Of a DNA stretch of 38,161 bases, positions 16,864 through 38,161 are shown in pieces. A model generated the notes under the pieces. That model saw only the letters and a program-made list of their open reading frames with translations. It was not told where the DNA came from and did not search any database. A program made the translations under genes and the position numbers. Positions within the stretch are counted from its first letter, which is position 1. Every line of letters starts with the position of its first letter. Location: positions 1 through 38,161 of the forward strand of contig JASEGZ010000015.1 of the NCBI GenBank assembly GCA_030018935.1, in the 5' to 3' direction. The stretch comes from Syntrophales bacterium. Its GTDB lineage: Bacteria > Desulfobacterota > Syntrophia > Syntrophales > CG2-30-49-12.

Positions 16864-19356
16864 ATGGAAACGATGGCAAAGGAAAAGGAAATTAAGGAAT
16901 TGGCAGAGAAACGGGAGTGGTGGCGGGTGGCCGAGAAGACCCGCTCCAAACGTCTTAACTATCTTCGCAAGACAGTCTGGAAAAAAGGAGCCCTCGGGGG
17001 GAACTATGCCCCTGGTATAAAAATTGACCTGATCTTTCCCCAGCTTTTTATTGGAGCATGGAAGGAACACGATGGTAAGCCCATTATGCTCAGGAAGGCT
17101 CATGCCCTGGCCGATGTGCTGGACAAAACACCCATATTCATTACTGACCATGCGCAACTTGTGGGCTACGTGGGGAGCGCTCCTCATGAGTTGGTCTGGC
17201 ACTGGCAATCGGCAAGTATAATAAACGAGGAGCTCTATAACGAACCGGGGATCATCCCGGAACCGGAAAAAGAGTCTTTGAACATTATAGCCAAGCTGAA
17301 TGATTACTGGGGAGGTCAGACAGCTCTCGACAGCCTGGCCAAAGCCCTGGATCCTGAAGATGCAGTGAAGTTTATGAGCGGCGCCATCGGGTGGGGGATT
17401 CCCTCATCTGCCGGTACTTATTCCACCAAGGACTTTGGGTTCATTTTTAAAGGCTTTGAAGCGATAATTGATGAAATTGACCGGCATATCGAGGAAGCTG
17501 AAAAGAAAACCCAGGGCAATCCCTCACCTGAAATTATTCCCCTGTACGACAAGTTTCACAGGTGGGAGGCCATGCAGACGCTGCTGGAGGCTGGTATCCG
17601 ATATGCAAAGCGGTACGCCAGGTTGGCCAGGATTGTGGCGGAAAATTTTGAGAGCGATCCGCAACGCAAGGAAGAGTTGTTGCGTATTGCCGAGACCTGT
17701 GAACGCGTTCCGGCAAAGCCACCCAGGAACCTTCAGGAATCATTGCAGTTTGATCACTTCGTTCAGGTACTTCTAAGATATGAGACCTTTGAGGGAGCCT
17801 GGCCACACCGACCTGATTATATCCATGGTCCTTATTATGATAAGGACGTGAATATAGAAAGGAGACTTACCAAAGAAGAGGCCATTGACCTTGTGGGTGA
17901 GCACATGATCCGCACCTATGAAGTGGGTATCTTCGCACCACGGTGGGGCAAAGAAGGGCTCCAGGGTATTACTGGTACCTGGGTATGGACCATGGGAGGG
18001 GTTAATCCTGACGGAACTGACGCCTGCAACGACCTGACCATCGCCTATATGCAGGCCGCACGGTTGGTGCGAGTTTCCAACCCTACCTTTGCTTTCAGAT
18101 GGCATCCGAGGGTAGCCGATGATGTAATGAGGGAGGTTTTTGAGTGCGTACGCCATGGTCTCGGTTATCCTTCCATACGCAACGATCCTGTGCTGATCGC
18201 CAATGGGATGTACTGGCATGGGCATCCCCTGGAGGAGATGAGAACATGGGTGCATCAGGCCTGTATGTCACCCTGTCCCACCACCAAATATGGATGCCAG
18301 CCCTTCAGGATGGCATCGGCCACAGCCAATCTTGCCAAGGTTATAGAATACGTACTCCATAACGGATATGATCCCGTAATAAACATGCAGATGGGCCCAA
18401 AGACGGGCGACCCTTGCAAGTTCAAGGACTTTGAGGAATTATTCCAGGCCTGGGTCAAGCAGGTGGAGTGGCTAATGAACATTCTGGTGCGTACGGTTAA
18501 TCTGGGAAGAACCAAAGATCCGGAGTTCTTTGGGAGACCAATGCTATCTGCCATTTACGAGCGTGCTGTGGAGACAGGAACGGATGCGGTTGACCCGACC
18601 AATGGTGAGCGCGGCAACGCTTGGGTAACCGGCTTTACCTTTGTAGAAAATGCCGACAGCTTGGCTGCCATAAAGAAGCTTGTCTATGAGGAAAAGAAAT
18701 ACACGATGGAACAGTTGATAGAGGCCATTAAGACTAACTGGGAAGGTTATGAGGAGATGCGTCTTGACTTTGTCAGAGGCGCTCCCAAGTGGGGCAATGA
18801 CGATGATTATGTGGATCAAATACTGTTGCGCTGTCTGAGAGAAATGGCCAGGCACGGGAAAGAGATAAAGTGCACTGCGGGGAATAATATACCGGTTCTA
18901 CCGGAGAACGTAAGTGGCAACATCCACTATGCCAATATCGTTGGCGCTCTGCCCAACGGCCGCAGGTTGGGTGATGCTCTTTATGACGGTGGCATTTCCC
19001 CCGGTCCGGGTCTTGACAGGAAAGGCCCTACAGCAGTTCTTAAGTCCTGTGGAAAAATCGACCATATCACCGATGGACGGGCCTTTTTGCTAAACCAGCG
19101 GTTATCTCCAACCCAGCTTGCAGGTGAGAAGGGCTATCAGTTATGGAAGTCCTATATGAGGACCTGGGCTGATTTAGGGCTTGATCATGTGCAATTCAAT
19201 ATGGTGGATGACGCTACCCTACGCGCTGCCCAGAGGGAGCCTGAGAAGTATCAGGAGGTAATTGTCCGGGTTGCCGGTTACAGTGCGCACTTTGTGGATA
19301 TCAGCCGTAAGACCCAGGACAATATTATCCAGAGGACCATTCAGGGACTGGTCTAA
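16864..19356 (+). CDS. Glycyl radical enzyme 1, X-succinate synthase (BssA/AssA)-like catalytic subunit
   Basis: 830 aa. Carries the C-terminal glycyl loop RVAGYSAHFVDIS with the radical Gly at 805, and the catalytic thiyl Cys467 in VHQACMSPCPTTKYG. Arg482 lies exactly 15 residues after the Cys, matching BssA Cys493/Arg508, whose Arg binds fumarate. Other shared segments are GLGYPSIRNDPVLI, ERGNAWVTGFTFVENADSLA and NEGYEEMR-like NWEGYEEMRLDF. The PTTKYGCQPFRMASATAN stretch is closest, as I recall it, to the alkylsuccinate-synthase AssA/MasD branch. Predicted reaction: C-H activation of a hydrocarbon or aromatic and addition to fumarate, in the anaerobic cytoplasm, after radical installation by an activase. 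No activase lies beside it; two are at 35.6-37.5 kb. PFL- or choline-lyase-type function is much less likely. Confidence 0.9.
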   Translation: METMAKEKEIKELAEKREWWRVAEKTRSKRLNYLRKTVWKKGALGGNYAPGIKIDLIFPQLFIGAWKEHDGKPIMLRKAHALADVLDKTPIFITDHAQLVGYVGSAPHELVWHWQSASIINEELYNEPGIIPEPEKESLNIIAKLNDYWGGQTALDSLAKALDPEDAVKFMSGAIGWGIPSSAGTYSTKDFGFIFKGFEAIIDEIDRHIEEAEKKTQGNPSPEIIPLYDKFHRWEAMQTLLEAGIRYAKRYARLARIVAENFESDPQRKEELLRIAETCERVPAKPPRNLQESLQFDHFVQVLLRYETFEGAWPHRPDYIHGPYYDKDVNIERRLTKEEAIDLVGEHMIRTYEVGIFAPRWGKEGLQGITGTWVWTMGGVNPDGTDACNDLTIAYMQAARLVRVSNPTFAFRWHPRVADDVMREVFECVRHGLGYPSIRNDPVLIANGMYWHGHPLEEMRTWVHQACMSPCPTTKYGCQPFRMASATANLAKVIEYVLHNGYDPVINMQMGPKTGDPCKFKDFEELFQAWVKQVEWLMNILVRTVNLGRTKDPEFFGRPMLSAIYERAVETGTDAVDPTNGERGNAWVTGFTFVENADSLAAIKKLVYEEKKYTMEQLIEAIKTNWEGYEEMRLDFVRGAPKWGNDDDYVDQILLRCLREMARHGKEIKCTAGNNIPVLPENVSGNIHYANIVGALPNGRRLGDALYDGGISPGPGLDRKGPTAVLKSCGKIDHITDGRAFLLNQRLSPTQLAGEKGYQLWKSYMRTWADLGLDHVQFNMVDDATLRAAQREPEKYQEVIVRVAGYSAHFVDISRKTQDNIIQRTIQGLV

Positions 19357-19364
19357 AGTTACCA

Positions 19365-19394
19365 TGCCCCGAGTTCTGTGAGAGGCTCGGGGCA
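19365..19394 (+). other. Hairpin between the two glycyl radical enzyme genes
   Basis: TGCCCCGAG and CTCGGGGCA form a perfect 9-bp stem with a 12-nt loop, starting 8 nt after the first enzyme's stop. AAAA, not a U-tract, follows, so it is more likely an mRNA-stability or partial-attenuation element than a full terminator. Confidence 0.5.
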
Positions 19395-19405
19395 AAAGTA
19401 AGCGT

Positions 19406-19570
19406 CCAGCAGTCAGCAATCAGCGGTCAGGAAGAAACCGAACGCTGATAGGTGAACACTTACATTGGTAGAAGGGAGGGGTTGTGGATACGGATACCGT
19501 CTTAGGTAGTAAACATTTAAGAGGTAAGACTTTGTTTTTACCGAAAGCTGTCGGCTGATGGCTGAAAGCT
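19406..19570. repeat. Inverted pair of CAGC/TCAGC-rich repeats
   Basis: Left arm 19406-19431 (cagcagtcagcaatcagcgg...) and right arm 19543-19570 are imperfect inverted copies of the same CAGC-ATCAGC-GTCAG motif. They bracket ~110 bp just upstream of the second enzyme's ribosome-binding site. A related pair lies at 29615-29777. Confidence 0.5.
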
Positions 19571-19593
19571 TATGAAGAAAGGAGGTTATTAAA

Positions 19594-22095
19594 ATGGCAC
19601 AGGTTGAAGAACAGAAAGAAGAAGTGGTAAAAAAAGCGGAGGAATTGTATGACGCTCGCCAATTCTGGTGGTGGGCGGAGAAGAAGAGGCCGTCTCGGCT
19701 CAACTACCTGAGGAAGGCGGTTTGGTCCAAGGCTGCCAAAGGATCAGCCTGGTTACCCGGGGTTCAGATGGACCTGGAGAATATCCGCTGGTACACGAAG
19801 ACATTCAAAGAGGCCCCTCCCTCGGAGCCCTTTATTATCACGAGAGCAAGAGCCCTTACAGCTCTCCTTGATAATATGCCCGTATTTATTACCGATCACT
19901 CCCGAATCGTGGGGTATCCGGGTTCCGCTCCCCATCTCATCTCCTGGATTCCCACCGCTTCTTCCACGCTTAACGACGATATGATAAACGATCGGACCGG
20001 TATCATTCCCGAGGAGAATCTGGAAGAGGTAAAGGAGATGGCCAATTTCTGGAAGGGGAGGACCTATGAGGACAAATGTCGTCAGTATCAGACCCGTAGG
20101 GAAAGGGTACTGGGAACCATGGCCGATTTTCTGGCACCGGGGAGAGACATCATCGGATCTGATTACGTTAACCCCCAGCCTGACTGGATGTACCAGGGAT
20201 TTGCCTCGATAATTAAAACGATTGAGGGGAAGCTAACCGAGGCGGAGAAGAAGATACGAGGGGCCGCCACTGCGGAGGAGCAGGTTTCACACCTCCAGAA
20301 GATGGACACCTGGAAGGCGATGAAAATGTGCCTGGAGGCAGCGATCAGATATGCGAGACGCTTAAGCCGTCTGGCGAAGATCATTGCCGAGAACTTTGAG
20401 ACCGATCCAAAGAGGAAGGAAGAACTCTTGCGGATCAGCGAGACCTGCTATAAGGTGCCGGCACAACCTCCGGAGCATCTCTGGGAGGCCATGCAATTCG
20501 ATCACCTTGTGCAGGTAGCATACAGGCTTGAGTGGATCAACAATGCCTGGCCATGGCGTCAGGATTACTGGCACTGGCCCTTCTATAAAAAAGACGTCCT
20601 CGAGGAGAAGAACCTGACAAGGGATGAGGTAGTGGAGTACTGTGCGGAGTGGATGATTGCCGCCTTTGGATTTGGCAGGGCATACCTTAGGTTTGGCAGG
20701 GAAGCCCTCCAGGGGAGTCCCGGCCCCTATGTATGGACCATTGGCGGAGTGGACGAGGACGGCAACGATGCCTGCAATGACCTGACCGATTGCTACCTGG
20801 AGGCAGCCCTTATAAGCAGGGTAAGCGATCCCACCTTTGGTTTCCGTTACAGTTCCAAGACCCGCACCGAGACCCTCCGGCGGGTATTTGAATGCATCCG
20901 CCACGGTCTGGGATATCCTTCCATCAGGAATGATGACGTCCTGATCCCCAATCTGATGCACTGGTTTGGTCATCCGTTGAAGGAGGCAAGGCGCTGGCAG
21001 CACCAGGCGTGCATGGCACCCGCCCCTGATACGAAATGGGGTGCGCCAGCCCTAAGATACCCGTCAGCCTCGATAGCAAGCGGATCAAAAACAATAAGTT
21101 TCGTTATGTTTGACGGTTTTGATCCGATAACGGGGATGCAGACAGGCATTAAGACGGGGGACTGTACAAAATTTGAAACATTTGATGAATTCTACAATGC
21201 ATGGTACGAGCAATACAAAGCCGGTTTCAGGCTGGCGACGACCATGGAGCATAAGAACAGGTATGTGGAGGCCCATCATCATCCTAAACCGATGATCTCC
21301 GCCCTCTTCGAGCGCTGCATAGAGACAGGTGAGAACAGTGCCCTCTGTAAGGAGAGGAGCAGTTTATGGTTTACCCTCTTTGCCTTCAGCGAAATAGGCG
21401 ACTGTATGGCGGCGGTGAAGAAGCTGATCTATGATGAAAAGAAGTACACAATGGCCCAGTTGAGGGATGCCCTCCTGGCGAACTGGGAAGGTTACGAGGA
21501 GATGAGACAGGCATTTGTCCGGGCGCCCAAGTGGGGCAACGACGACGACTATGTGGATCAGATATGGGTAAGGGTGCATGAGGACCTGGGTAAGGCATCC
21601 TGGTCTGTCCGTGATATCAATGGTCAACCCTGGGCTACTCTGCCGGAGAATGTGGCGCTGAACATCGTCCAGGCCCCGAAGATCGGTGCCCTGCCCAATG
21701 GTAGGAGACAGGGTGATCCGTTGTACGATGGCGGCTGTTCTCCCGGCGCCGGATTTGACAAGAAGGGACCTACGGCGGTGCTGAAATCGGTGAGCAAACT
21801 TGATCATGTGGGTTCGGTAAGGGCAACACTCCTCAACCAGAGGTTATCCCCCTCCCAGCTTCAGGGAGAGAAGGGTTTTGCCATGTGGCGGGACTACATG
21901 AAGACCTGGCATGACTTAGGGATCAACCATGTGCAGTTCAACATGGTTGACAACGAGACCCTTTATGCCGCCCAGAAGGAACCGGAGCAGTACAACGAGC
22001 TGTTAGTGAGGATTGCCGGTTACAGCGCCCACTTTGTTGACATGAATAAGATAACGCAGGACGGCATCATTGCCCGTTCTGTGCAGAGGTTTTAG
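19594..22095 (+). CDS. Glycyl radical enzyme 2, divergent X-succinate synthase-like catalytic subunit
   Basis: 833 aa, full-length paralogue of the preceding enzyme. Glycyl loop RIAGYSAHFVDMN (Gly809), catalytic Cys473 in QHQACMAPAPDTKWG, and Arg488 at Cys+15, as in BssA for fumarate binding. It differs from enzyme 1 near the active site: PTTK becomes PDTK (Asp479), and a candidate substrate-pocket segment is aromatic-rich (Trp319-Pro-Trp-Arg-Gln-Asp-Tyr-Trp-His-Trp) where enzyme 1 has WPHRPDYIHGP. Such changes suggest a different hydrocarbon or a bulkier/aromatic substrate. The GGAGG ribosome-binding site is 8 nt before ATG 19594. The 237-nt gap to enzyme 1 contains a hairpin and repeats, so separate expression control is possible. 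Confidence 0.88.
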   Translation: MAQVEEQKEEVVKKAEELYDARQFWWWAEKKRPSRLNYLRKAVWSKAAKGSAWLPGVQMDLENIRWYTKTFKEAPPSEPFIITRARALTALLDNMPVFITDHSRIVGYPGSAPHLISWIPTASSTLNDDMINDRTGIIPEENLEEVKEMANFWKGRTYEDKCRQYQTRRERVLGTMADFLAPGRDIIGSDYVNPQPDWMYQGFASIIKTIEGKLTEAEKKIRGAATAEEQVSHLQKMDTWKAMKMCLEAAIRYARRLSRLAKIIAENFETDPKRKEELLRISETCYKVPAQPPEHLWEAMQFDHLVQVAYRLEWINNAWPWRQDYWHWPFYKKDVLEEKNLTRDEVVEYCAEWMIAAFGFGRAYLRFGREALQGSPGPYVWTIGGVDEDGNDACNDLTDCYLEAALISRVSDPTFGFRYSSKTRTETLRRVFECIRHGLGYPSIRNDDVLIPNLMHWFGHPLKEARRWQHQACMAPAPDTKWGAPALRYPSASIASGSKTISFVMFDGFDPITGMQTGIKTGDCTKFETFDEFYNAWYEQYKAGFRLATTMEHKNRYVEAHHHPKPMISALFERCIETGENSALCKERSSLWFTLFAFSEIGDCMAAVKKLIYDEKKYTMAQLRDALLANWEGYEEMRQAFVRAPKWGNDDDYVDQIWVRVHEDLGKASWSVRDINGQPWATLPENVALNIVQAPKIGALPNGRRQGDPLYDGGCSPGAGFDKKGPTAVLKSVSKLDHVGSVRATLLNQRLSPSQLQGEKGFAMWRDYMKTWHDLGINHVQFNMVDNETLYAAQKEPEQYNELLVRIAGYSAHFVDMNKITQDGIIARSVQRF

Positions 22096-24072: not shown

Positions 24073-26103
24073 ATGAAAAAGTATCTTGTGTTTATCGGCC
24101 TCTGCATGGCCTTGATGATATTTCACGTCTATTCATTCGCAGAAACCATTAACCTCGAGGAGATTATCGTTAGGGGTGAGAGAGAGGTAGGTCCGGAAGA
24201 GTCTCTCGATATCAGGGAAGTTAGAGAGACACCCGCCCGGGATGTGGGGGAAGCCTTGAAAGGTATCGAGGGGATAAGTTCGATCAGAAAAGGCGCCATC
24301 GCCAATGACATTGTCCTGCGGGGATTCCAGAAGGACAACCTCAATGTCCTTGTTGACGGGACGAGGATCTACGGGGCATGTCCGAACCGGATGGACCCGC
24401 ATTCGTTTCATGTTGATTTTGCCGAGATTGAGGAGGTCTCCGTTCTAAAGGGACCGTTCGATGTGAAAAATCCGGGGAGTCTGGGGGGACTGATCGAAAT
24501 CAAGACGATAAAACCCCCAAAAGGATTAGGGGGCAGTATAAATGCCTCTGCGGGTTCCTACGAAAATATCGCCACCTCTGCCAATGCCACCTATGGGGGT
24601 AAGGGCCTGGATTTCCTTTTCGGATATGCTTACAAATACTCCCTTCCCTTCAAGGATGGGGATGGCAAAAGGATCACGGAACAGTACCCCCCTTCATCAG
24701 GCAATAGGTATAAAAGCGGGGATGAGGATAACAAGGCATATTCCATTAACACCTACTGGACCAGATGGGGCTTTAATCTCCCGTCCAATCAGAGGATGGA
24801 GATCGCCTACACCCGTCAGGAGGCCGACGATGTCATTTATCCCTACCTTCTGATGGACGCTGTTTTCGATAATACGGACCGCCTGCAGGTAAAATACGAG
24901 GTCACAGACCCCTCTGAAAGTGTAAAGAAACTGAAGGCTCAATTTTACTGGAACCAGGTAAAACATGATATGACCGACTGGAAGAGGGTATCATCCTCAG
25001 GATCCTCATCAGGTTATTCGATGAAGACCTACGCCGAGGCGGGAACTTCCGGAGGCAAAGTGGAGGGGGATTTTCCGCTCCATAACGGTGTTTTGACCGT
25101 GGGGATTGACTACTACCTCCGTAACTGGGATAGCGATACTACCTTAAAAACCGGTACCCAGGATTCTATCCCCGATGTTGATACGGAAGATATGGGGACC
25201 TACTTAGAGTATAGCCGGCCCCTTACGGAAAAGGGAGGTCTGACAGTGGGTGCCAGGTTCGACCATGTAAGGACAGAAGCCCACGCTGATCGCACCGACC
25301 TGTACCGCCAATACCATGGAACGACAGAGAGAGAAAAAACCGATTCCTATGGGAGTGGTAATATCCAGGTCTTCTACTCCCCGGTGAAGAGGATCGAACT
25401 CTCCGCCGGATGCGGACAGGCAACCAGGCCACCGGATGCCGTGGAGAGGTACTTCGCCCTGGAAAAACCCATGGAGATGCCAAACTGGGTGGGCAATCCC
25501 GAACTCGATCCGGTAAAAAACAGGGAGCTTGATCTGGGCATTAAATACTCAGGGGAGCGCCTTCACGCTAAGGCAACTTTTTTTTACTCCCGTGTAAAAG
25601 ACTTCATCACCATCTTCAATCTCCAGAAGCCGGGCCTTAAAAATGCGAGGAGCTACAGAAATGTAGACGCCATTCTGTATGGCGGCGAGATCAGCCTGAA
25701 TATATTTCTCCCCCTCCATCTCAACCTTCAAGGTGGCATCTCCTACAGCCGGGGTGATGATGACACCTATGACAAACCCCTCTCAGAGATGCCTCCGCTG
25801 AAGGGAAGAGTTGCCATGAGGCACGAGACAAACGGATATTTCACGGAGATCGAGGGTATCTTCGCCGATGACCAGAACAGGGTTGATCCCGCCCTTCGGG
25901 AGGAAGAGACTTCCGGATGGGGGGTGATGAATTTCAAGGCGGGGATGAAATACAAAGGGCTTAGTATCTCTGCTGGTGTTGACAACATTTTTGACAGGCT
26001 CTACCTTGAGCACCTCTCCTACCAGCGGGATCCCTTCAGTTCGGGTGTCAAGATCCCGGAGATAGGACGAAACCTTTACTTGAATCTTGCCTGGACCTTT
26101 TGA
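24073..26103 (+). CDS. TonB-dependent outer-membrane receptor, OprC/NosA copper type
   Basis: 676 aa. A signal peptide (MKKYLVFIGLCMALMIFHVY then SFA) is followed by a plug domain with the TonB-box-like region (LEEIIVRGERE) and a 22-strand-type barrel ending in an aromatic (NLAWTF). The plug has GACPNRMDPH: Cys103-x3-Met107 is the CxxxM Cu(I) motif of OprC (Cys143/Met147 there). HDM (His298-x-Met300) is the second, HxM, site (His323/Met325 there). Similar spacing to OprC strongly supports copper uptake across the outer membrane. A strong GGAGA ribosome-binding site precedes the start. It forms a trio with the two upstream genes. Confidence 0.85.
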   Translation: MKKYLVFIGLCMALMIFHVYSFAETINLEEIIVRGEREVGPEESLDIREVRETPARDVGEALKGIEGISSIRKGAIANDIVLRGFQKDNLNVLVDGTRIYGACPNRMDPHSFHVDFAEIEEVSVLKGPFDVKNPGSLGGLIEIKTIKPPKGLGGSINASAGSYENIATSANATYGGKGLDFLFGYAYKYSLPFKDGDGKRITEQYPPSSGNRYKSGDEDNKAYSINTYWTRWGFNLPSNQRMEIAYTRQEADDVIYPYLLMDAVFDNTDRLQVKYEVTDPSESVKKLKAQFYWNQVKHDMTDWKRVSSSGSSSGYSMKTYAEAGTSGGKVEGDFPLHNGVLTVGIDYYLRNWDSDTTLKTGTQDSIPDVDTEDMGTYLEYSRPLTEKGGLTVGARFDHVRTEAHADRTDLYRQYHGTTEREKTDSYGSGNIQVFYSPVKRIELSAGCGQATRPPDAVERYFALEKPMEMPNWVGNPELDPVKNRELDLGIKYSGERLHAKATFFYSRVKDFITIFNLQKPGLKNARSYRNVDAILYGGEISLNIFLPLHLNLQGGISYSRGDDDTYDKPLSEMPPLKGRVAMRHETNGYFTEIEGIFADDQNRVDPALREEETSGWGVMNFKAGMKYKGLSISAGVDNIFDRLYLEHLSYQRDPFSSGVKIPEIGRNLYLNLAWTF

Positions 26104-26228
26104 TTGGAGATGGGCTAAAATTCACAGGAAAAATCTTTGACTTTTTTTCAGGGCTGGGGTAGTTTTAAGCGATTATGGATCTCCTCATGTAAGGAAAGTC
26201 CAATACTTTTCGGAAGGAGGTATTTAAC

Positions 26229-27026
26229 ATGAACTGGGGAATGAAAAACCGTTTATCACAGCTTATTCAACCGGATGGTCATTGCTTTTTCCTGCCCATA
26301 GACCACGGCTATTTTCAAGGTCCCACAACCTGTCTGGAGAGGCCCGGGGAAACCATCAGACCGCTTCTTCCCTACTGCGATGCCCTCTTTGTCACGAGAG
26401 GCGTTTTGCGTGCCGCGGTGGACCCCGAAAATACTAAACCTGTTATCCTCCGGGTATCCGGGGGCACCAGCGTAATCGGCAAGGATCTGGCAAATGAGGC
26501 GATCACCACTTCCATAGAAGAGATCATCCGTCTCAATGCAATGGCGGTCGGCATTTCCATCTTTGTAGGCAGCGATTACGAGCATGAATCCCTGACAAAT
26601 CTTGCAGGGCTCGTCAATAGATGTGAAGATTACAGTATCCCCGTTATGGCTGTCACGGCTGTGGGCAAAGAACTGGAAAAGCGAAACGCCAGATACCTCG
26701 CCCTATGCTGTCGTATCGCCGCTGAATTAGGGGCCCGGGTAGTAAAAACTTACTGGTGTGAAGACTTTGACCGGGTTACAAACGGCTGTCCCGTTCCGGT
26801 GGTGATGGCAGGCGGTCCCAAATGCGAAACAGAACTCGAGGTCTTTGAGTTCGTCCATGATGGGATGCAAAAAGGCGCCGTGGGTATAAATCTTGGGAGG
26901 AACGTCTGGCAGAATCCTCATCCTGTAGCCATGATCAGGGCCCTGCGGTCTGTTATTCACGAGAATTACACCCCGGAAGAGGCCAACGATTTATTCAATA
27001 GTCTTAAGCACGATGAACAACGGTAA
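26229..27026 (+). CDS. LsrF-like class I aldolase/thiolase
   Basis: 265 aa, DhnA/FbaB-type (beta/alpha)8 barrel. Near-identical to LsrF in key segments: FFLPIDHGYFQGPTTCLERP, VGSDYEHESL, and ARVVKTYWCEDFDRV. Lys173 corresponds to LsrF Lys203, the Schiff-base residue. LsrF cleaves 3-hydroxy-2,4-pentadione-5-phosphate with CoA in autoinducer-2 breakdown. No lsrK, lsrG or Lsr transporter lies here, so its substrate may be another phosphorylated ketose or dione. Followed after 62 nt by an MDR dehydrogenase on the same strand, possibly one pathway. The ribosome-binding site AAGGAGG is well placed. Confidence 0.85.
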   Translation: MNWGMKNRLSQLIQPDGHCFFLPIDHGYFQGPTTCLERPGETIRPLLPYCDALFVTRGVLRAAVDPENTKPVILRVSGGTSVIGKDLANEAITTSIEEIIRLNAMAVGISIFVGSDYEHESLTNLAGLVNRCEDYSIPVMAVTAVGKELEKRNARYLALCCRIAAELGARVVKTYWCEDFDRVTNGCPVPVVMAGGPKCETELEVFEFVHDGMQKGAVGINLGRNVWQNPHPVAMIRALRSVIHENYTPEEANDLFNSLKHDEQR

Positions 27027-27041
27027 CCGTGAAATGGTAAA

Positions 27042-27098
27042 ATGCGCGTAGCAGTGTGCTATAATCTGAACGGACCGGACAGACCAATATGCGTGTAG
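27042..27098 (+). other. Duplicated gene-start stub before the MDR dehydrogenase
   Basis: ATGCGCGTAGCAGTGTGCTA is an imperfect copy of the next gene's start (ATGCGTGTAGCAATGTACTA at 27089). It encodes an 18-aa frame (MRVAVCYNLN then GPDRPICV) ending 10 nt inside the true gene. Most likely a relic of a deleted tandem copy; a leader peptide is possible but less likely. Confidence 0.5.
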
Positions 27099-28114
27099 CA
27101 ATGTACTACAACAACAGGGACGTTCGCCTGGAGGAGATGCCAACACCGCGGATTGGCCCTGGCGAGATACTGGTGAAGGTAATAACCAGTGGTATCTGCG
27201 GCAGTGATGTCATGGAGTGGTACCGCATCAAAAAGGCCCCCCTCGTTCTCGGTCATGAAATTGCAGGAGAAATCGTTGAGACAGGAAGGGATGTAAAGCG
27301 TTACAAGGTTGGTGACAGAGCCTTCGTCTCTCACCACATACCCTGCAATACCTGTTACTACTGCCTAAGAGGTCACCATACCGCCTGTGAGACGCTGCAC
27401 ACCACAAACTATGATCCCGGTGGTTTTGCGGAGTATGTGCGGGTTCCCGAACTGAATGTTGACCGGGGGGTCTTTCTCCTGCCTGATGAGGTCTCTTTTG
27501 ATGAGGGTACGTTCATCGAACCGCTGGCCTGTGTTATTCGCGGGCAGAGAGTTGCAAATCTTCAACCGGGGCAGGCGATACTTATCCTCGGCAGCGGCAT
27601 CTCCGGGATGCTCCACCTGTTACTGGCACGCACCCTCGGCGCGGGCCGGATAATCACGACAGACATCGGCGAATACCGCCTGAGGATGGCGAGACAATTC
27701 GGGGCGGATGCGGCGATCCATGCCCATGAAGATGTCCCTGGTATCTTCCGTCGGCTCAACGACAACCGCCTCGCCGATCTTGTCATCATCTGCAATGGCG
27801 CCCCCTCTTCCTTCTCTCAGGCGCTGCAATCGGTGGATCGCGGCGGTACCGTTCTCTTTTTTGCCCCCACAGAGCCGGGCGTTGATATCCCTGTACCGGT
27901 TAATGACTTCTGGCGCAATGAGATAAAATTGATGCCTTCTTACGGCAGCAGTCCTTCCGATACCATCGTGGCGATGGAAATCATCCGCGCCGGTCGCATG
28001 CCCGTAAGAGAGTTGATTACCCACAGGTTAAGCTTGGAAGAAACGGGGCTTGGTTTTCGGCTTGTCGCCGAGGCGGGGGAATCTCTCAAAGTAATTATCG
28101 AACCTCAGAGATGA
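27089..28114 (+). CDS. Zinc-dependent medium-chain alcohol/polyol dehydrogenase
   Basis: 341 aa MDR enzyme. Catalytic-zinc segment TSGICGSDVMEW and GHEIAGEIVETG. The structural zinc site CNTCYYC...C (Cys-x2-Cys-x2-Cys-x7-Cys) is intact, and the Rossmann turn LGSGISGMLHLL follows. Closest in style to sorbitol/threonine dehydrogenase-type members that oxidise a secondary alcohol of a sugar or amino-alcohol with NAD(P)+. It follows the LsrF-like aldolase and may act on a product or precursor of it (inference). The start has a duplicated imperfect copy 47 nt upstream and no clear ribosome-binding site. Exact substrate unknown. Confidence 0.85.
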   Translation: MRVAMYYNNRDVRLEEMPTPRIGPGEILVKVITSGICGSDVMEWYRIKKAPLVLGHEIAGEIVETGRDVKRYKVGDRAFVSHHIPCNTCYYCLRGHHTACETLHTTNYDPGGFAEYVRVPELNVDRGVFLLPDEVSFDEGTFIEPLACVIRGQRVANLQPGQAILILGSGISGMLHLLLARTLGAGRIITTDIGEYRLRMARQFGADAAIHAHEDVPGIFRRLNDNRLADLVIICNGAPSSFSQALQSVDRGGTVLFFAPTEPGVDIPVPVNDFWRNEIKLMPSYGSSPSDTIVAMEIIRAGRMPVRELITHRLSLEETGLGFRLVAEAGESLKVIIEPQR

Positions 28115-28210
28115 TCTAAAAAAACACCTCGGGAATTCAGATCAACCACGATTAAGAGATGATATTCCTCTCATGCCTCTGGGGGGAAGACAGAGGTGCA
28201 GGAATCTATA

Positions 28211-29599
28211 ATGGAAGCGCAAGACGTTAAGTTTTTCTTCGAGCCCAAAAGTGTCGCCATCGTGGGGGCCTCAAGTACACCGGGCCGTCCTGGATATATG
28301 ATAATCGAGAATCTCTTAGAATGGGGGTTTAAGGGTAGTGTTTATCCCGTCAACCCCACAGCCGATGAGATTTTGGGCTTGAAAGCTTACGCTGACCTCA
28401 GGGAAATCCCAGCTTCCGTGGAACTGGTAATTTCCCTTACCCCGGCGGAGGAAACGCTTGAAGTAATAGAACAGTGCCGGGAGAAGGGAATCAGGGGGAT
28501 CGTCATTGTATCCGGTGGCTTTTCAGAGATAAACCCCAGGGGTACCGAGCTTGAGAAAGAAATAGTCGTCCGGGCACGGCAGAGCGGGATAAGGGTAATG
28601 GGGCCCAATGTCATAGGCCCCATTAATACCTCAAATAACTTCGTACTGTCCTTCTACTCACCGAGTCGTCTGAAAAAAGGTAATATCGCCTTCGTTGCTC
28701 AGAGTGGGCAGTTTTGTTCCCCGGTGATGGATTGGATGGCCTCGCACTTACGATTGGGGGTGAGCAAGTCCATTGACCTGGGCAATAAATGTGATCTTAA
28801 TGAAGCAGACATTCTGGAGTACCTGGAGAACGACGTTGATTCCAGAGCCATAGCCCTTTATATAGAGGGGTTCAAGGAAGGCAGGAGGTTCCTCCGCGTT
28901 GCGGAAAGGGTCTCCCGGAAGAAGCCTATAATTGTTTTTAAGACAGGAAGAACCTCTGCTGGAGCCAGGGCAACAGCTTCACATACGGGAGCTATGGCCG
29001 GTGATGATCGGATTGCTGATGCTCTCATTCGCCAGGTCAAGCTAATACGAGCTAAGGATCTCGAGGAATTTCTTGATTTAGCGAAGGCTTTTCAGTATCT
29101 TTCTCTCCCCCGCGGTAAGAGGGTGGGCATAATCACCTATAGTGGCGGTATAGCGGCGATGGCAGCCGACGCCGCTACCGACTGGGGACTTGAGCTGGCC
29201 ACACTTTCTCCACAAACAGTAGAGCAACTGGGGCAACTGGATCCGGTGATAAAGCCATCTAATCCCTTAGACCTTTTCACGGTAGCACCGCCTTCCCGGG
29301 ACCTCTTTGAACTGTACCGGGCAGCAACGGAGGTGATGTTGGCTGACAATGGAGTTGACTGCCTGCTCGTCTGCTTCATGGTCTCGAGGCGCATGTGGTG
29401 GTCCAATTTGGACTTGCTGGCAAGGACGGCGAAGATAAGCAAGAAAAAGCCCACAGTAGCCTGGGTGATAGGGGATGAAGATGACGTCATTGAGGTGACG
29501 CAGGTGTTAGAAGAAGACGGGATGCCTGTTTTTCCCTCTCCGGAAAGGGCAATGAGAGCTCTGGGTGTCCTCTATACCTACCAGTGCCTCAAGGCCTGA
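28211..29599 (+). CDS. ADP-forming acyl-CoA synthetase, alpha-subunit-type
   Basis: 462 aa from ATG 28211 (AGGA 7-8 nt upstream; GTG 28196 is an alternative adding 5 residues). CoA-binding Rossmann domain (KSVAIVGASSTPGRPGYMI), then two succinyl-CoA-ligase-like domains. The catalytic phospho-His is His258 in ATASHTGAMAG, near-identical in place to archaeal ACD alpha subunits (~460 aa). The ATP-grasp beta half is absent from the polypeptide and from the window, so a partner must be encoded elsewhere. The reaction interconverts acyl-CoA + ADP + Pi with acid + ATP. Neighbouring ACAD and ETF genes suggest thioester activation or release in the same degradation pathway. Confidence 0.85.
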   Translation: MEAQDVKFFFEPKSVAIVGASSTPGRPGYMIIENLLEWGFKGSVYPVNPTADEILGLKAYADLREIPASVELVISLTPAEETLEVIEQCREKGIRGIVIVSGGFSEINPRGTELEKEIVVRARQSGIRVMGPNVIGPINTSNNFVLSFYSPSRLKKGNIAFVAQSGQFCSPVMDWMASHLRLGVSKSIDLGNKCDLNEADILEYLENDVDSRAIALYIEGFKEGRRFLRVAERVSRKKPIIVFKTGRTSAGARATASHTGAMAGDDRIADALIRQVKLIRAKDLEEFLDLAKAFQYLSLPRGKRVGIITYSGGIAAMAADAATDWGLELATLSPQTVEQLGQLDPVIKPSNPLDLFTVAPPSRDLFELYRAATEVMLADNGVDCLLVCFMVSRRMWWSNLDLLARTAKISKKKPTVAWVIGDEDDVIEVTQVLEEDGMPVFPSPERAMRALGVLYTYQCLKA

Positions 29600-29614
29600 G
29601 GGCTCAGCCACTTC

Positions 29615-29777
29615 GTAAGCGTTCAGCTATCAGCCTTCAGTTTTCAGCGAAAGCAGAAAGATACCAGGGGTAGGGGCGTATTGCAATACGCCCCTACTTC
29701 CAGGACGAATTTTTATACGTATGTTTTTGCCTTGACTTGTTTTACTGATTACTGATCGCTGACGGCTGAACACTTAC
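29615..29777. repeat. Inverted-repeat element with TAAGYGTTCAGC ends
   Basis: Left end TAAGCGTTCAGC (29616) and right end complementary to TAAGTGTTCAGC flank ~163 bp with further CAGC/TCAG repeats in each arm (29619-29648 and 29744-29773). The centre contains the 28-bp perfect palindrome. Same family as the pair at 19406-19570. Non-coding, MITE-like. Confidence 0.55.
29670..29697. repeat. 28-bp perfect palindrome
   Basis: GTAGGGGCGTATTG joined to its exact reverse complement, with no loop. Half copy at 22101. Typical of a widely dispersed bacterial repeat. Confidence 0.85.
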
Positions 29778-29778
29778 T

Positions 29779-29919
29779 CTAGAGGTAATTGCAAAAGTCT
29801 TGAAATTAAAATGTAGTCGCAAACTTTAGTTTGCGTGTTTTCTTTGTTTTCAATATGTTACAAAACGCAGGCTAAAGCCTGCGGCTACCAGAATTGGACT
29901 TTTGCAAGAGCCTCTCTAG
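29779..29919. mobile_element. MITE-like palindromic element 3
   Basis: 141 bp with terminal inverted repeats based on CTAGAG...TTGCAAAAGTC at both ends. Two 7-bp hairpins lie inside: CGCAAAC/GTTTGCG (loop TTTA) and CGCAGGC/GCCTGCG (loop TAAA), themselves flanked by GTAG/CTAC. Non-coding, just upstream of the second ACAD. Confidence 0.7.
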
Positions 29920-30008
29920 TATAATATTATAGATCAGGAAACCTTCATCACTCAGTCATCTATAGATGGTCAATGGTCTTTACACTTTAAAGAGAGGAGA
30001 TTTAGAAA

Positions 30009-31175: not shown

Positions 31176-31183
31176 ATAAAAAC

Positions 31184-31230
31184 CAGTCGTAAGTCATCAG
31201 TCGTAAGTCATCAGTCGTAAGTCGTAAGTC
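31184..31230. repeat. Heptamer repeat array 3 (CAGTCGTAAGTCAT units)
   Basis: Three near-exact copies of a 14-bp unit (last one variant) composed of the GTCGTAA and GTCATCA heptamers, between the ACAD and etfB. The ribosome-binding site of etfB lies just after it. Confidence 0.8.
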
Positions 31231-31256
31231 AACAACCTTGATTAAAGGGGACTACT

Positions 31257-33020: not shown

Positions 33021-33059
33021 TTACGACTTATGACTTACGACTTATGACTTATGACTTAT
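33021..33059. repeat. Heptamer tandem repeat array 4 (TTATGAC/TTACGAC)
   Basis: Five copies of the 7-bp unit between etfA and the VWA gene stop, same unit as the array at 2127. Confidence 0.8.
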
Positions 33060-34775
33060 TTACTTTCGCAACCCGTAGATGATGATCCATCTAAGCAGTT
33101 TTTCCATGGCACTCGGTAATTGGTCGAAATGGTCGAGAAACTGAATCGCCTTACCGTACTGCTTCAACATTACCTCGCGGTTCTTGTAACCACAACCCAA
33201 CGTTACAAGGTGTATATTTCTCCGCTTACAGTAGTCAATGCCATAGTGAACATCGCAACCAAGATTTGACTCACCATCAGTGACATGGATAATAAAACTC
33301 CTTCCTCCCATGCGGGGCATAAAATATGCTGCGGCGATAATAGCCTGGCCGGTGGCTGTTTTACCAGCAGGAGGAATGGAGAGTAAATTACTACCCTTCC
33401 TAAGTTTAGAAATCAAACAAACCCCTTCCACCTCAAAGTAACCATAGGCCTGCAACCGATTTCCAAAACCCCTGAAAGCTCTATGAATGGTTCCTACCAC
33501 ATTCTCCACCATTCTCCACTTCGGCCCTGCCATGGAACCGCTGGCATCCATGAGGAGACATATATTCCAGTCCATCTTGGGCAGAGACTGTTTCTCAAAA
33601 AAACAGCGGCCATTGATGGGCGCCCTGTACAACCTCCGCCTGTCCACCTTCCCGCTTACAAGTCCCCGACTCGGAAGGATCTCCCGATCGGCGTAAGTCT
33701 CAAATATCAGCTTCAGGCGGGCTGCCAGGTGGTGGTCCACCACGGGATGGGCCGGCATATTGAAATCCCACCTCGAGATAGGAACGATGTCTACGTCATC
33801 ACCTACAATAGAGCGGATAATGGGTGTAATGTCCGTTGAATCATAGGCAAGTTTTGTTTCTATCTGCTGGACTTCAGCGTCAGACAGGGCAGCCTTTGGG
33901 GGGGGCTTCTTGGGACGCACTTCCGCCTCTTCTGTCGGCGCAGACCACAATAATGACCTATCCATTATCTGCCAGGAAGCGATAATATCCTTAATGTTTT
34001 CCCATGTTTCCCGGTACAGATGATACCGCTCTACGCAACGGTCGGTTACGCTCTTTTTCTGTTGATGAACCTCCTTCAGCCTGTCCGTAAGACCCTGCAG
34101 AATGGCAAGCGGTCCTTGATAGACCGGCAATATTTCCGTCTCCTCGAACTCCTTCCATACACTGACCCACCAGAGATAGATCAGTTCTTCCACTGTTACA
34201 GCTTTAGACTTTAAAAGAAGGCGGGCTTCCTCCATGGCTATACTTCGGGCTGCCCGGGTATAGAGGCTGAGGATGGATTTATCGGAGATGCAGTCAACAT
34301 AAATATCCTCCCCCGTGTATACGATCTTCTGAAGGATGATCTTATGGGTGAGCCCCATATTTTTGGAGGCCTCCTCAATTTTTTTCCACACCAGCTCGGT
34401 CCACTCGGTCCTGTGCAGGGCCTCATGGGTTACGATTCCCACCAGGTAATCAATCCTTCTAAACGGGACCGGGTAACATCCCAGAACTACATCGGGATCG
34501 AGGACAATAGCCTCCTCCCCGGCATGTGACATACCGGCCCACTCGATTCTCCCTACATTCTGACCGATATGACCGGCAACCTTGCGCAGGGCGCGCAGAA
34601 TGTTGGCCAATTCTGTAGCCTCGATAAAGGAAACATTCTTCCGCCAGAACGCTGATATACCCTCAAATTCAAATCCAGGAAGGATGCTTAGGGTGTCCTC
34701 ATGCTCTTCATACTTGCCCCTCTTTTTAACCTCCGGAGGAGGGAGGGGGCTAATACATTCTGTAGCGATAGCCAT
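33060..34775 (-). CDS. VWA-domain protein, partner of a MoxR-type AAA+ ATPase
   Basis: 571 aa. N-terminal ~400 residues are unrecognised, with helical content and a THEALHRTEWTELVWK segment. A C-terminal von Willebrand factor A domain begins near residue 400, with the metal-ion-dependent adhesion site DASGS (Asp410, Ser412, Ser414) and TDGE further on. Architecture and pairing (start overlaps the end of the AAA+ gene by 26 nt) are those of NorD/CbbO/CoxE proteins, which together with an AAA+ partner remodel or activate another enzyme. The natural target here would be the glycyl radical synthases or their subunits (inference). Confidence 0.85.
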   Translation of the reverse strand: MAIATECISPLPPPEVKKRGKYEEHEDTLSILPGFEFEGISAFWRKNVSFIEATELANILRALRKVAGHIGQNVGRIEWAGMSHAGEEAIVLDPDVVLGCYPVPFRRIDYLVGIVTHEALHRTEWTELVWKKIEEASKNMGLTHKIILQKIVYTGEDIYVDCISDKSILSLYTRAARSIAMEEARLLLKSKAVTVEELIYLWWVSVWKEFEETEILPVYQGPLAILQGLTDRLKEVHQQKKSVTDRCVERYHLYRETWENIKDIIASWQIMDRSLLWSAPTEEAEVRPKKPPPKAALSDAEVQQIETKLAYDSTDITPIIRSIVGDDVDIVPISRWDFNMPAHPVVDHHLAARLKLIFETYADREILPSRGLVSGKVDRRRLYRAPINGRCFFEKQSLPKMDWNICLLMDASGSMAGPKWRMVENVVGTIHRAFRGFGNRLQAYGYFEVEGVCLISKLRKGSNLLSIPPAGKTATGQAIIAAAYFMPRMGGRSFIIHVTDGESNLGCDVHYGIDYCKRRNIHLVTLGCGYKNREVMLKQYGKAIQFLDHFDQLPSAMEKLLRWIIIYGLRK

Positions 34776-35598
34776 TTTCTCTCTCTTTCAAACCGAGTCT
34801 AATATGTAACGATAAAAGAATTGATTCAAGCACATCCTTACTCACCTGCAGACTGTTTATAAATGCTTCATTGACTGTAGCCCCGATAGCCACCATTTCG
34901 GCAATCATAAGCGTATGACGTGTCGAAACCACTATCGGTTCCTGTGCATTTCCCCGCAACTGGTTGGCAATGTTGACTATCGTCAAGGCGTCGGCGCTGC
35001 TGATATCGCATTTGAGCTCAAGGACCTTTGTTTCCACCTCAGCAGGGAGGTAATTCAGAACAATCGTATAAAAACGGTCCCGTAAAGCCGCATCGAGCAT
35101 CTCTGTCCCGATAAACTCCTCCCCTTCGTTCAGGGTGGCAAAAAAAACCGCCTCAGGAGCCACCTTTATTAAACCGAGTTCATCGGTCCATACCCTGCGA
35201 TCCTCTGCCAGGACGGAAAACAACATGTTCAGTGCCTTGGGATGTTCGGGACGGTTAATCTCCTCCAGATGAATCACGCAGCCGGGGGTCTGGATAGCTT
35301 CAGGAAAGAGAAATTTCTGATAATAGGTTTCCCCATCCTTTAGTTTGTACTCACCGAACAACTGTCCCGGCTCGGAGAGGATACCTACCTGGAACGTGGC
35401 AAACGGTCTTTTATTCCGTGCCGCGAATTGTCTTACCAGTGTGGATTTGCCACAGCCCTGTTTCCCCGCGACAAGTACATTCACCGGATGTTTTTGGGAC
35501 AGCTTCTCTATCCTTTCTAAGTTCGTAATTTCATACTCCGGCAGAAAGAAGTTTTTCTCCGCCTCCGGAATCGCGCCTGAAATATCAAATTCTGTCAT
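34750..35598 (-). CDS. MoxR-family AAA+ ATPase (BssE/NorQ/CbbQ-like)
   Basis: 282 aa. Walker A GKQGCGKST (45-53), Walker B region CVIHLEEINRPE (107-118), sensor segment FFATLNEGEEFIGTEMLDAALRDRF. Small AAA+ proteins of this kind serve as enzyme-activating chaperones: NorQ for NO reductase, CbbQ for Rubisco. BssE in the toluene bss operon, an AAA+ protein of the same size, is thought to assist benzylsuccinate synthase. Position directly after two activase genes, and the strong AAGGAG ribosome-binding site, support the same role here. It overlaps the VWA gene by 26 nt. Confidence 0.87.
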   Translation of the reverse strand: MTEFDISGAIPEAEKNFFLPEYEITNLERIEKLSQKHPVNVLVAGKQGCGKSTLVRQFAARNKRPFATFQVGILSEPGQLFGEYKLKDGETYYQKFLFPEAIQTPGCVIHLEEINRPEHPKALNMLFSVLAEDRRVWTDELGLIKVAPEAVFFATLNEGEEFIGTEMLDAALRDRFYTIVLNYLPAEVETKVLELKCDISSADALTIVNIANQLRGNAQEPIVVSTRHTLMIAEMVAIGATVNEAFINSLQVSKDVLESILLSLHIRLGLKERENGYRYRMY

Positions 35599-35647
35599 AA
35601 TTATTAACTCCTTAATTAGTTTTGATTTTCTTCACAGATCAGGGCTG

Positions 35648-36574
35648 CTAACCGCCGACCGTTACCTCCTCCACATAGTTCAGGAAAAGATCTATCACCG
35701 GTTTTACCAGTTCATCATCCAGTCCTTCCCCTGCCGGAAAACCGTAATCCATACCGAAAGTCTTATACTTGGCTCCCGCATAGGGGTGATACGTCAAAAG
35801 GTCTGCCCCCAATACCACATCTCCCAGGCTTTGAACAAACTTTGCCGTTTCTTCAAGGCTTTCCCTGGAATCATTCCTGCCGGGAATAATCGGGACACGG
35901 ATACGCATCTTGATGCCCTTCTCAGCAATACGCTTTGCATTCTCAAGGATCAGCTCATTTCCCTGTCCAGAGTATTCCCTGTGCTGCCGGGAATCCATAT
36001 TTTTAATATCGAACAGCACCAGGTCTGTGAATTCGAGGACGCGCTCAAGATCGCCCCACGGTGCATGACCACAGGTATCAATGGCCGTCTTGATCCCCCG
36101 ATTTTTAGCCTCTTTCATCAGGTGATAGGTAAACTCCGGCTGAGCCATCGGTTCTCCCCCGGAGAGGGTCATCCCTCCCCCTGAATGATCATAAAATTGT
36201 TTGTCCTGTTCCACCTCGGCGATGACCTCGGTTACCGTCAAAATTCTCCCCCACCATACCAGCGCATTTTCCTTACAGGCCTCGACACACTGAAGGCACG
36301 TAGTGCACAAACTCTTGTCAATCCACGGCACTTTTTCCTCCTTCATGGCAAGGGCGCCTGTGGGACAAACGTCCAGACATTTCTTACAGCCTGTACAGTT
36401 ATTAAGATATGGTATCACCTCCGGGTACCGTCTCTTCCCCTCTGGATTGTGACACCATTCACAGTTCAGGTAACAACCCTTAAGAAAAACGGTTGTTCTG
36501 ATCCCCGGACCATCACAGGTAGACATTCTCTGAATATCGTATACAACCCCCGAAGCTCCACTCTCTTCTATCAT
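35648..36574 (-). CDS. Glycyl radical enzyme activase 2 (radical SAM)
   Basis: 308 aa. Radical SAM CxxxCxxC in GCYLNCEWCHNPE (Cys34/38/41), followed by two ferredoxin-type [4Fe-4S] motifs (Cys60/63/66/70 and Cys90/93/96/100). It also has the SAM-binding GGGMTLSGGEP loop. Two extra Fe-S clusters are the mark of activases of the BssD/AssD-type and other non-PFL glycyl radical enzymes. It abstracts the Gly hydrogen using a 5'-deoxyadenosyl radical, installing the radical in one of the two synthase-like enzymes. Separated by 9 nt from activase 1. Its target (enzyme 1 or 2) is unknown. Confidence 0.92.
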   Translation of the reverse strand: MIEESGASGVVYDIQRMSTCDGPGIRTTVFLKGCYLNCEWCHNPEGKRRYPEVIPYLNNCTGCKKCLDVCPTGALAMKEEKVPWIDKSLCTTCLQCVEACKENALVWWGRILTVTEVIAEVEQDKQFYDHSGGGMTLSGGEPMAQPEFTYHLMKEAKNRGIKTAIDTCGHAPWGDLERVLEFTDLVLFDIKNMDSRQHREYSGQGNELILENAKRIAEKGIKMRIRVPIIPGRNDSRESLEETAKFVQSLGDVVLGADLLTYHPYAGAKYKTFGMDYGFPAGEGLDDELVKPVIDLFLNYVEEVTVGG

Positions 36575-36583
36575 AGTTAACCT

Positions 36584-37546
36584 CTATTCCCTTCCTTCAA
36601 AACCAGATCCACCAATCGTGGCCGGGATACCAGCATCCATGTAAATATCGAGGAGCGGGTTCAAAAACGATGGTTCTATGGCCTCCATACCAGTGTATCC
36701 CCAATCTATCCCCAGCCAGCGGTACTTGTCCTGGCACCAATTGTGGAAAGGCAGTAGATCTATCCTCTCTACCGGCTTTGGCAAGGACTTTAGAAAATCT
36801 ACAACTCGCAAGTGGTAGTCTAACTGATCGTTATAATCGGGTATCACGGGGATGCGAATCCATATCGCCTGCCCGTTTTCGGAAATTTTTTTCAGATTCT
36901 CCAGGATCAACTCGTTTCCTACACCGGTCATCCTTTTATGTTCGGCAGAATCGAGGTGCTTTAGATCATATAAGATAAGATCCACATTCTTCAGGATCGG
37001 TTCCAAAACCTCCCAGGAACAGTGTCCACTGGTATCCATACAGGTATGCAGCCCCTTTGCTTTTGCCCTTGCTAAAAGTTCCCGGACAAAATCGGGACAA
37101 ATAGTCGGCTCACCGCCACTTAATGTCATTCCACCACCAGAATTGACATAAAAAGGCTCATCCTTCTGTACCTCTTTCAACACCTCGTCTAGGGAATATT
37201 CTTGCCCCACAATCGTAAGAGCATTGTACTTACAGGCATCTATACATTTCATGCAACGAGTGCAACGCTCCCGGATGATCTTATGATAGGTTGATCCTTC
37301 GCTCCGGGCTTCTTCAGGGGGTATAGGCGGGTTAATGGCATTTTCAGGACAGGCCTCGAGACAGGCGCCGCACTGTACACACAACAAGGTCCTCCAATAG
37401 ATCTCATGGTATGGAGCCTGTGTCTCCGGGTTGTGACACCAGGCGCACTTCATGTTACAACCCTTGATGAAGACATTGGTCCGGAAACCAGGACCATCAT
37501 TGACCATAAAGTGCTGGATATCGGTTATTAACACACCTTCACTCAT
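36584..37546 (-). CDS. Glycyl radical enzyme activase 1 (radical SAM)
   Basis: 320 aa, distinct paralogue of the next activase. Radical SAM Cys30/34/37 (KGCNMKCAWCHNPE), ferredoxin motifs Cys56/59/62/66 and Cys95/98/101/105, with a longer insert between them (EEARSEGSTY). GGGMTLSGGEPT SAM loop present. The two activases differ enough that one per glycyl radical enzyme is the simplest reading. Transcribed with the small Cys protein genes upstream and activase 2 downstream. It works in the cytoplasm and needs reduced ferredoxin or flavodoxin. Confidence 0.92.
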   Translation of the reverse strand: MSEGVLITDIQHFMVNDGPGFRTNVFIKGCNMKCAWCHNPETQAPYHEIYWRTLLCVQCGACLEACPENAINPPIPPEEARSEGSTYHKIIRERCTRCMKCIDACKYNALTIVGQEYSLDEVLKEVQKDEPFYVNSGGGMTLSGGEPTICPDFVRELLARAKAKGLHTCMDTSGHCSWEVLEPILKNVDLILYDLKHLDSAEHKRMTGVGNELILENLKKISENGQAIWIRIPVIPDYNDQLDYHLRVVDFLKSLPKPVERIDLLPFHNWCQDKYRWLGIDWGYTGMEAIEPSFLNPLLDIYMDAGIPATIGGSGFEGRE

Positions 37547-37584
37547 TGCCTGTCTCCTTCCACCTTAAGTTGCTGTTATCACCG

Positions 37585-37821
37585 TTACCCTTCTTTTGTG
37601 TCTTTCTTCTCCCGTCTGAAAACCTGCCCCCGGAGAGAACTTAATCCCCAGACTTTCAAGGGAGAAGATTGTTCATCCAGCTCCAGCTCATCGCTGTAGA
37701 TGGCACATTTACACTTAGGACACTGGCGATACATGTCCGGTGCCGGGTCTCTCGCGCGGCCCAGGATACGGAACTCACTTCTCAGTCCCTCATAACCACA
37801 ATTATCACATTTAATGGCCAT
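37585..37821 (-). CDS. Small zinc-ribbon/rubredoxin-like protein
   Basis: 78 aa from ATG 37821 (GAGG 9 nt upstream; a TTG at 37830 is less likely). CDNC (Cys5/8) and CPKC (Cys34/37, plus Cys39) give a rubredoxin- or zinc-ribbon-type pair of knuckles 25 residues apart: KCDNCGYEGLRSEF, and MYRQCPKCKCAIYSDELE. An acidic C-terminus follows. Lies between the 77-aa Cys protein and activase 1, so it belongs to the radical-enzyme cluster. Could bind Zn or Fe; the role is unknown. Confidence 0.75.
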   Translation of the reverse strand: MAIKCDNCGYEGLRSEFRILGRARDPAPDMYRQCPKCKCAIYSDELELDEQSSPLKVWGLSSLRGQVFRREKKDTKEG

Positions 37822-37845
37822 TGATGTCAACCTCTCATGTTCCCG

Positions 37846-38079
37846 TTACTTCTCATCAAACCCTCTTGCCGTCCGCAGGTTGGGGTTCCACATAAATTCA
37901 GAGACATTCGTCCTTACCCGATCTAAGGCAGCGAATTTTGGACACTTACTCGCATCCATGTAAATGTCCTTCTCCGTGCCCAATCCGTCCGCGTCCAAAA
38001 AAACCTTGCAAAGTCCAATATTTGCCGCAGAATTCGCCCCCTGGACGAGAAAATTGCTACAATCACCACATCTGACCAT
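37846..38079 (-). CDS. Putative small Fe-S subunit of the X-succinate synthase-like enzyme
   Basis: 77 aa from ATG 38079. Four cysteines spaced C-x2-C-x16-C-x21-C: VRCGDCSNF, GLCKV, and SKCPKF. This spacing and the CGDC...C...C-P-x-F pattern resemble the HiPIP-like [4Fe-4S] small subunits (BssB/BssC, MasB/C/E, NmsB) that bind the large subunit of X-succinate synthases and help shield the radical. Gene context (two activases, AAA+/VWA, two synthase-like subunits nearby) supports it. A longer reading from 38106 would overrun the ribosome-binding site GGAGGTG at 38086-38092, so the short start is preferred. Identity is by pattern only. Confidence 0.65.
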   Translation of the reverse strand: MVRCGDCSNFLVQGANSAANIGLCKVFLDADGLGTEKDIYMDASKCPKFAALDRVRTNVSEFMWNPNLRTARGFDEK

Positions 38080-38085
38080 TTCTCT

Positions 38086-38092
38086 CACCTCC
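38086..38092 (-). promoter_or_regulatory. Ribosome-binding site for the 77-aa Cys protein
   Basis: GGAGGTG, 6 nt before ATG 38079. It decides this start against the upstream ATG at 38106. Confidence 0.65.
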
Positions 38093-38105
38093 TCATCTTT
38101 TATCA

Positions 38106-38161
38106 TTACGCGAGCCTCGCACCTGGATTGGTCAGAGAGGCGCTGTAGACCTCCTCAACCG
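38106..38161 (-). CDS. C-terminal end of an unidentified protein (runs off the edge)
   Basis: An open frame entering from the right edge reads VEEVYSASLTNPGARLA and stops at TAA (38106-38108), 26 nt before the 77-aa protein start. Too short to identify. The close spacing suggests the cluster continues beyond the window. Confidence 0.35.
   Translation of the reverse strand, partial: VEEVYSASLTNPGARLA

Follow-up and report, generated by a model that had tools for sequence, protein, structure and literature searches.

Two different catalytic subunits of X-succinate synthases (XSS) are encoded in tandem in the window, the whole stretch of 38,161 nucleotides analysed here, which is the entire contig C15 of MAG G000 (2.07 Mb, 96% complete). 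Judged by its sequence, ORF1 is an ordinary, conventional AssA, and ORF2 is a real, conserved and uncharacterised X-succinate synthase variant with a testable gating difference. We consider it likely, with a probability of about 0.65, that ORF1 acts as a conventional n-alkane AssA and that ORF2 represents a second alkane-side subclass with a different hydrocarbon, the pair widening the substrate range.

Results

Two full-length glycyl radical enzymes are encoded in tandem

ORF1 (16864..19356, + strand, 830 aa) was assigned as an alkylsuccinate synthase catalytic (alpha) subunit of the AssA/MasD type, and ORF2 (19594..22095, + strand, 833 aa) as the alpha subunit of an X-succinate synthase from an uncharacterised branch on the alkane side. 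The two proteins are 49% identical over 825 columns, and both matched the Pfam PFL-like and Gly_radical families well over the cut-off. Each presented a glycyl loop (RVAGYSAHF with Gly805 in ORF1 and RIAGYSAHF with Gly809 in ORF2), a thiyl cysteine (Cys467 and Cys473, respectively) and an arginine at Cys+15 (Arg482 and Arg488), the spacing found in BssA (Cys493/Arg508) and in MASS (Cys477/Arg492). The coordinates, lengths and residues given in the original prediction for two full-length glycyl radical enzyme (GRE) paralogues carrying these three elements were all confirmed. Comparison with relatives yielded dN/dS values of 0.07–0.15 for ORF1 and ORF2, indicating purifying selection.

The two genes are separated by 237 bases, with no terminator-like site found between them on the + strand, and the same order recurred in another species of this genus (L026, with the downstream neighbours in L056). 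The ORF1 copies of the two species differ with a dS of 0.79, compared with 0.11 for the neighbouring mem221 gene and 0.27 for the alpha gene of contig C9, a hint that ORF1 was exchanged with a paralogue or has changed fast. Downstream of the pair, the + strand carries genes for a TonB receptor, a zinc alcohol dehydrogenase, a CoA-ligase alpha subunit, an acyl-CoA dehydrogenase and EtfBA (24073-32995), possibly serving as downstream or uptake functions for the pair; an inverted pair of 28-base repeats with short TAAGTC-type repeats (31204-31231 and 33031-33058) lies on either side of the EtfBA genes.

The premise that such operons usually hold a single catalytic subunit proved weak. Tandem alphas were present in L022 (three AssA), in L181 (two AssA and one beta) and in L175 and L177 (at least two of the ORF2 type each), and two or three AssA per organism have been published for cultured or enriched alkane degraders (PMC7180275, PMC10811727), with two near-identical sets kept in Desulfoglaeba (PMC7180275). 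Tandem alphas as such are therefore widespread and unremarkable, and the remarkable part is the pairing of two different branches.

ORF1 and ORF2 belong to different branches of the alkane-side enzymes

In phmmer searches ORF1 matched MasD of Azoarcus HxN1 (PDB 9o8u_A) with 1375 bits and 70% identity, as against ~510 bits for BssA, while ORF2 reached 833 bits and 47% identity with MasD and 517 bits with BssA. In three trees ORF1 was nested in the AssA/MasD clade with a support of 100/100, and ORF2 fell among the alkane-side X-succinate synthases, on a branch of its own outside AssA and outside the Geothermincola-type group. Both proteins fell within the fumarate-adding clade and were separated from CutC, isethionate-lyase-like and other GREs (SH-aLRT 100), and both scored far under the cut-offs of the NCBIfam equivalogs for PFL, CutC and other PFL2-type eliminases. 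Placement of either protein outside this clade had been set beforehand as the refuting outcome for the original prediction, and neither grouped with the PFL/CutC families; the expectation of two separate, unlabelled branches was borne out for ORF2 but not for ORF1, which sits in the labelled AssA/MasD branch (100/100). Since the named references were MasD, BssA and outgroups, taken from the PDB and one genome-contig scan, with no certain NmsA, IbsA or HbsA among them, the branches of the latter three are unlabelled in these trees.

AssA and the Geothermincola-type group together formed the sister clade of the ORF2 branch (100/99), and an AU test rejected joining the ORF2 branch to AssA without the Geothermincola group (p=0.0008). 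Monophyly was supported at 91/90 for the whole ORF2 branch and at 100/99 for the subset of seven rows closest to ORF2. The branch was found in six MAGs, namely that of the window, G001 of the same genus, G338, G534, G535 and G536, with several copies each in G535 and G536, the XSS alphas of G536 being apparently of the ORF2 type only. Copies occurred in L175, L177 (G535), L178-L180 and L156 (G536), some of them in tandem and separated by another, unrelated GRE. The AlphaFold model of ORF2 (pLDDT 92.7) had 9o8u_A as its best PDB match (TM 0.94), with a TM of 0.86 to CutC.

Among known systems, ORF1 is a plain member of the group represented by MASS (MasBCDE of Azoarcus HxN1; PDB 9o8u; PMC12358834), and ORF2 shares with MASS its fold, the Cys/Gly/Arg set and the fumarate and pocket residues, but differs in its separate branch and in the gate changes described below. 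The uncharacterised AssA-like alphas of the Geothermincola/Solincola type are the nearest other deep alkane-side branch; unlike ORF2, they keep Trp185 and the N-terminal extension of beta and group with AssA (100/99). BssA (PDB 4pkc, 5bwe) is likewise a fumarate-adding GRE with the Cys/Arg spacing of ORF2, but the tree places it opposite ORF2 (100/100). MasD amplicon clusters II and III, by their published description, comprise uncultured or rare marine-seep lineages <60% identical to cluster I (PMC4703814), and in the same amplicon region ORF2 and MasD share 56% identity. We found no description of the ORF2 branch in the openly licensed literature searched.

ORF2 keeps the fumarate site but has an apparently altered substrate gate

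Active-site residues of MASS were taken from the structure paper (PMC12358834). ORF2 keeps the whole fumarate-site set, Y191, C473, R488, T594, F596, E685 and G809, equivalent to Tyr194, Cys477, Arg492, Thr598, Phe600, Glu690 and Gly814 of MASS. The BSS-specific Ser199, Asn615, Ile617 and Gln707 were absent, both ORFs reading Y, T, F and E at those positions. The substrate-gate residue Trp185 of MASS corresponds to Pro182 in ORF2, and two more changes lie near the site (Gly375 to Ala371 and Thr382 to Pro378, MASS to ORF2), while ORF1 presented all the listed MASS residues, including the Trp185 equivalent.

All ORF2-branch alphas examined carried P, T, A or G at position 185, against Trp in all Geothermincola-type rows and in most AssA. 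Because several AssA of one uncultured family have also lost this residue, its loss alone is not diagnostic, and we rejected it as a mark of the branch. That family (L022 and L140-L150; G360, G381) has as many as roughly nine AssA copies, and Trp185 is lacking in many of them.

A short beta subunit lies near several ORF2-branch alphas

An 86-aa MasB-like beta subunit with four cysteines and without the N-terminal helix extension is encoded at 37846..38106 (- strand), 15 kb from ORF2 and on the opposite strand. A profile of the short and Geothermincola betas matched MasB (9o8u_B; E 1.4e-10), hhalign gave 98.7% for short against long betas, and Cys13/16/33/55 were invariant across 18 betas; the identity of the short beta rests on these profiles, its AlphaFold model having a pLDDT of only 48. 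The C-terminal motif RxRTxxSEF is common to the window beta and those of the Geothermincola/Solincola type.

The window beta has 12 residues ahead of its first CxxC, compared with at least 27 in long betas. Outside the window, ORF2-branch alphas lay near a beta with 2–6 such residues in L013, L173, L175 and L193, while about 37 AssA or Geothermincola alpha–beta pairs had at least 27 (one-sided Fisher p 1e-5 for beta length against alpha type, a rough value from hand-entered counts that ignores relatedness). No short beta was found in three other MAGs carrying ORF2-type alphas. This distribution suggests that the 86-aa beta pairs with ORF2. In MASS, the N-terminal helix of beta rests on the element carrying Trp185 (PMC12358834); since this is the helix missing from the short beta, alpha and beta may have changed together, altering the gate on both sides.

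Accessory genes lie on the opposite strand

The original prediction had overlooked the activases, small subunits and MoxR/VWA pair on the opposite strand (33060-38106). A MasE-like, rubredoxin-type delta subunit with two CxxC motifs (37585..37830, - strand) matched 9o8u_D (MasE) by phmmer with an E of 1.5e-4, so that, as in MASS, both MasB- and MasE-type accessory subunits are found in the locus. It is followed by GRE activase 1 (36584..37546, - strand; TIGR02494 336 bits, rSAM_BssD 273 bits) and activase 2 (35648..36574, - strand; TIGR02494 334 bits, rSAM_BssD 248 bits), a BssE-like accessory MoxR-type AAA ATPase (34750..35598, - strand; AAA_5) and its paired VWA-domain protein (33060..34775, - strand; VWA). 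An activase adjacent to the catalytic subunit had been expected; none adjoins the pair, but two are encoded in the same window on the other strand (35648-37546), and together with beta and delta (35648-38106) they share the contig of ORF1 and ORF2.

Orthologues of activase 1 adjoin XSS alphas, and activase 2 lies beside activase 1 in several related clusters. MoxR homologues 58–75% identical were found next to Bss- and Ass-type alphas, and the MoxR–VWA pair recurs in both kinds of locus. A gamma subunit was sought in the window genome and none was found, whereas in L013 an ORF2-type alpha gene and a gamma gene precede the beta gene. The third XSS alpha of this genome, of the AssA type, lies on contig C9 (L004:1342-4247) with a delta gene upstream and a long MasB-type beta gene downstream, and no activase or gamma was found beside it on that contig. 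Because this third AssA has no activase on its contig, the activases are probably common to several alphas. An arrangement of one activase per alpha was rejected, as Geothermincola-type loci and L053 combine the same two activases with a single alpha. An in-frame TAA was present in two otherwise intact GRE genes, at L013:1160-1162 (G001) and L003:2872-2874 (G000), reflecting assembly error or decay.

ORF2-type relatives lie beside alkylsuccinate-pathway genes

CoA-transferase, methylmalonyl-CoA mutase and decarboxylase belong to the known alkylsuccinate route. In L175, genes for the first two and for a decarboxylase subunit lie upstream of ORF2-type alphas. Full-length genes of the methylmalonyl-CoA-mutase family number 13 in the window genome (contigs C5, C13, C19, C16, C2 and others), which looks unusually many for 2.07 Mb and fits many branched or alkyl-succinyl-CoA substrates.

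Discussion

By analogy with MASS, ORF2 would add a hydrocarbon to fumarate. An activase would generate a glycyl radical at Gly809, which would pass to Cys473 as a thiyl radical; this would cleave a C–H bond of the hydrocarbon, and the resulting carbon radical would join fumarate held by Arg488, the oxyanion hole of the Cys loop and Glu685, in a site shaped by Tyr191 and Thr594. The succinyl radical would then regain its hydrogen from Cys473. On its fumarate side the site is MASS-like; the hydrocarbon half and its gate differ (Pro182, Ala371, Pro378 and a putative partner beta without the helix). ORF1, for its part, would add n-alkanes to fumarate. The altered gate, the pocket residues and the helix-less partner beta therefore suggest that ORF2 acts on a hydrocarbon different from that of ORF1, and with a different hydrocarbon for each enzyme the pair would cover a wider range of substrates. 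That two alphas serve two substrates, as originally proposed, remains the best reading of the gate and pocket changes and the distinct beta, and is what we infer from them.

The intact MASS-type fumarate site would also suit an isoenzyme taking essentially the n-alkanes of ORF1, for use under other expression conditions or with a modest shift in chain length. AssA is commonly present in multiple copies, the two near-identical Desulfoglaeba sets included (PMC7180275), but the deep separate branch, the distinct beta and the gate and pocket changes kept across MAGs of different groups make this reading unlikely. Much less probable is a mixed dimer of ORF1 and ORF2 with common accessory subunits and activases, the hetero-oligomer of the original prediction. 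GREs are dimers, that of MASS being asymmetric (PMC12358834), the tandem order is conserved in a second species, and in L014 an AssA-type delta and the shared activases are encoded upstream of an ORF2-type alpha. However, G536 apparently has ORF2-type alphas only, L175 has them in tandem without an AssA alongside, each alpha type occurs with its own beta type wherever neighbours are readable, and both alphas hold a full catalytic set, neither resembling a purely structural partner; we found no positive evidence for this idea. Equally hard to credit, if not slightly more so, is that ORF2 no longer adds fumarate or is decaying. The in-frame TAA of the relative in L013 would point that way, but ORF2 itself is intact in the window, all fumarate and radical residues are conserved under strong purifying selection, and alkylsuccinate-pathway genes lie beside ORF2-type relatives.

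A bolder and tentative extension, to which we give well under even odds, is that the ORF2 branch forms a functionally separate subclass in which the gate Trp disappeared along with the beta helix, leaving a differently regulated channel for hydrocarbons that AssA does not serve, e.g. branched, cyclic or bulkier ones, and that this subclass has expanded to multiple copies in certain bacteria of seeps and the subsurface.

Fumarate addition is a main anoxic route for opening hydrocarbons, and to our knowledge the solved structures are those of BSS and MASS only. The 2025 structure of MASS (PMC12358834) left open the way in which MASS-beta and Trp185 control the channel, and a natural variant that lacks the Trp as well as the beta helix would make that gating model directly testable. 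The ORF2 branch is also a candidate for acting on hydrocarbons with no known anaerobic degrader, and surveys of assA that presume one enzyme type would misread it.
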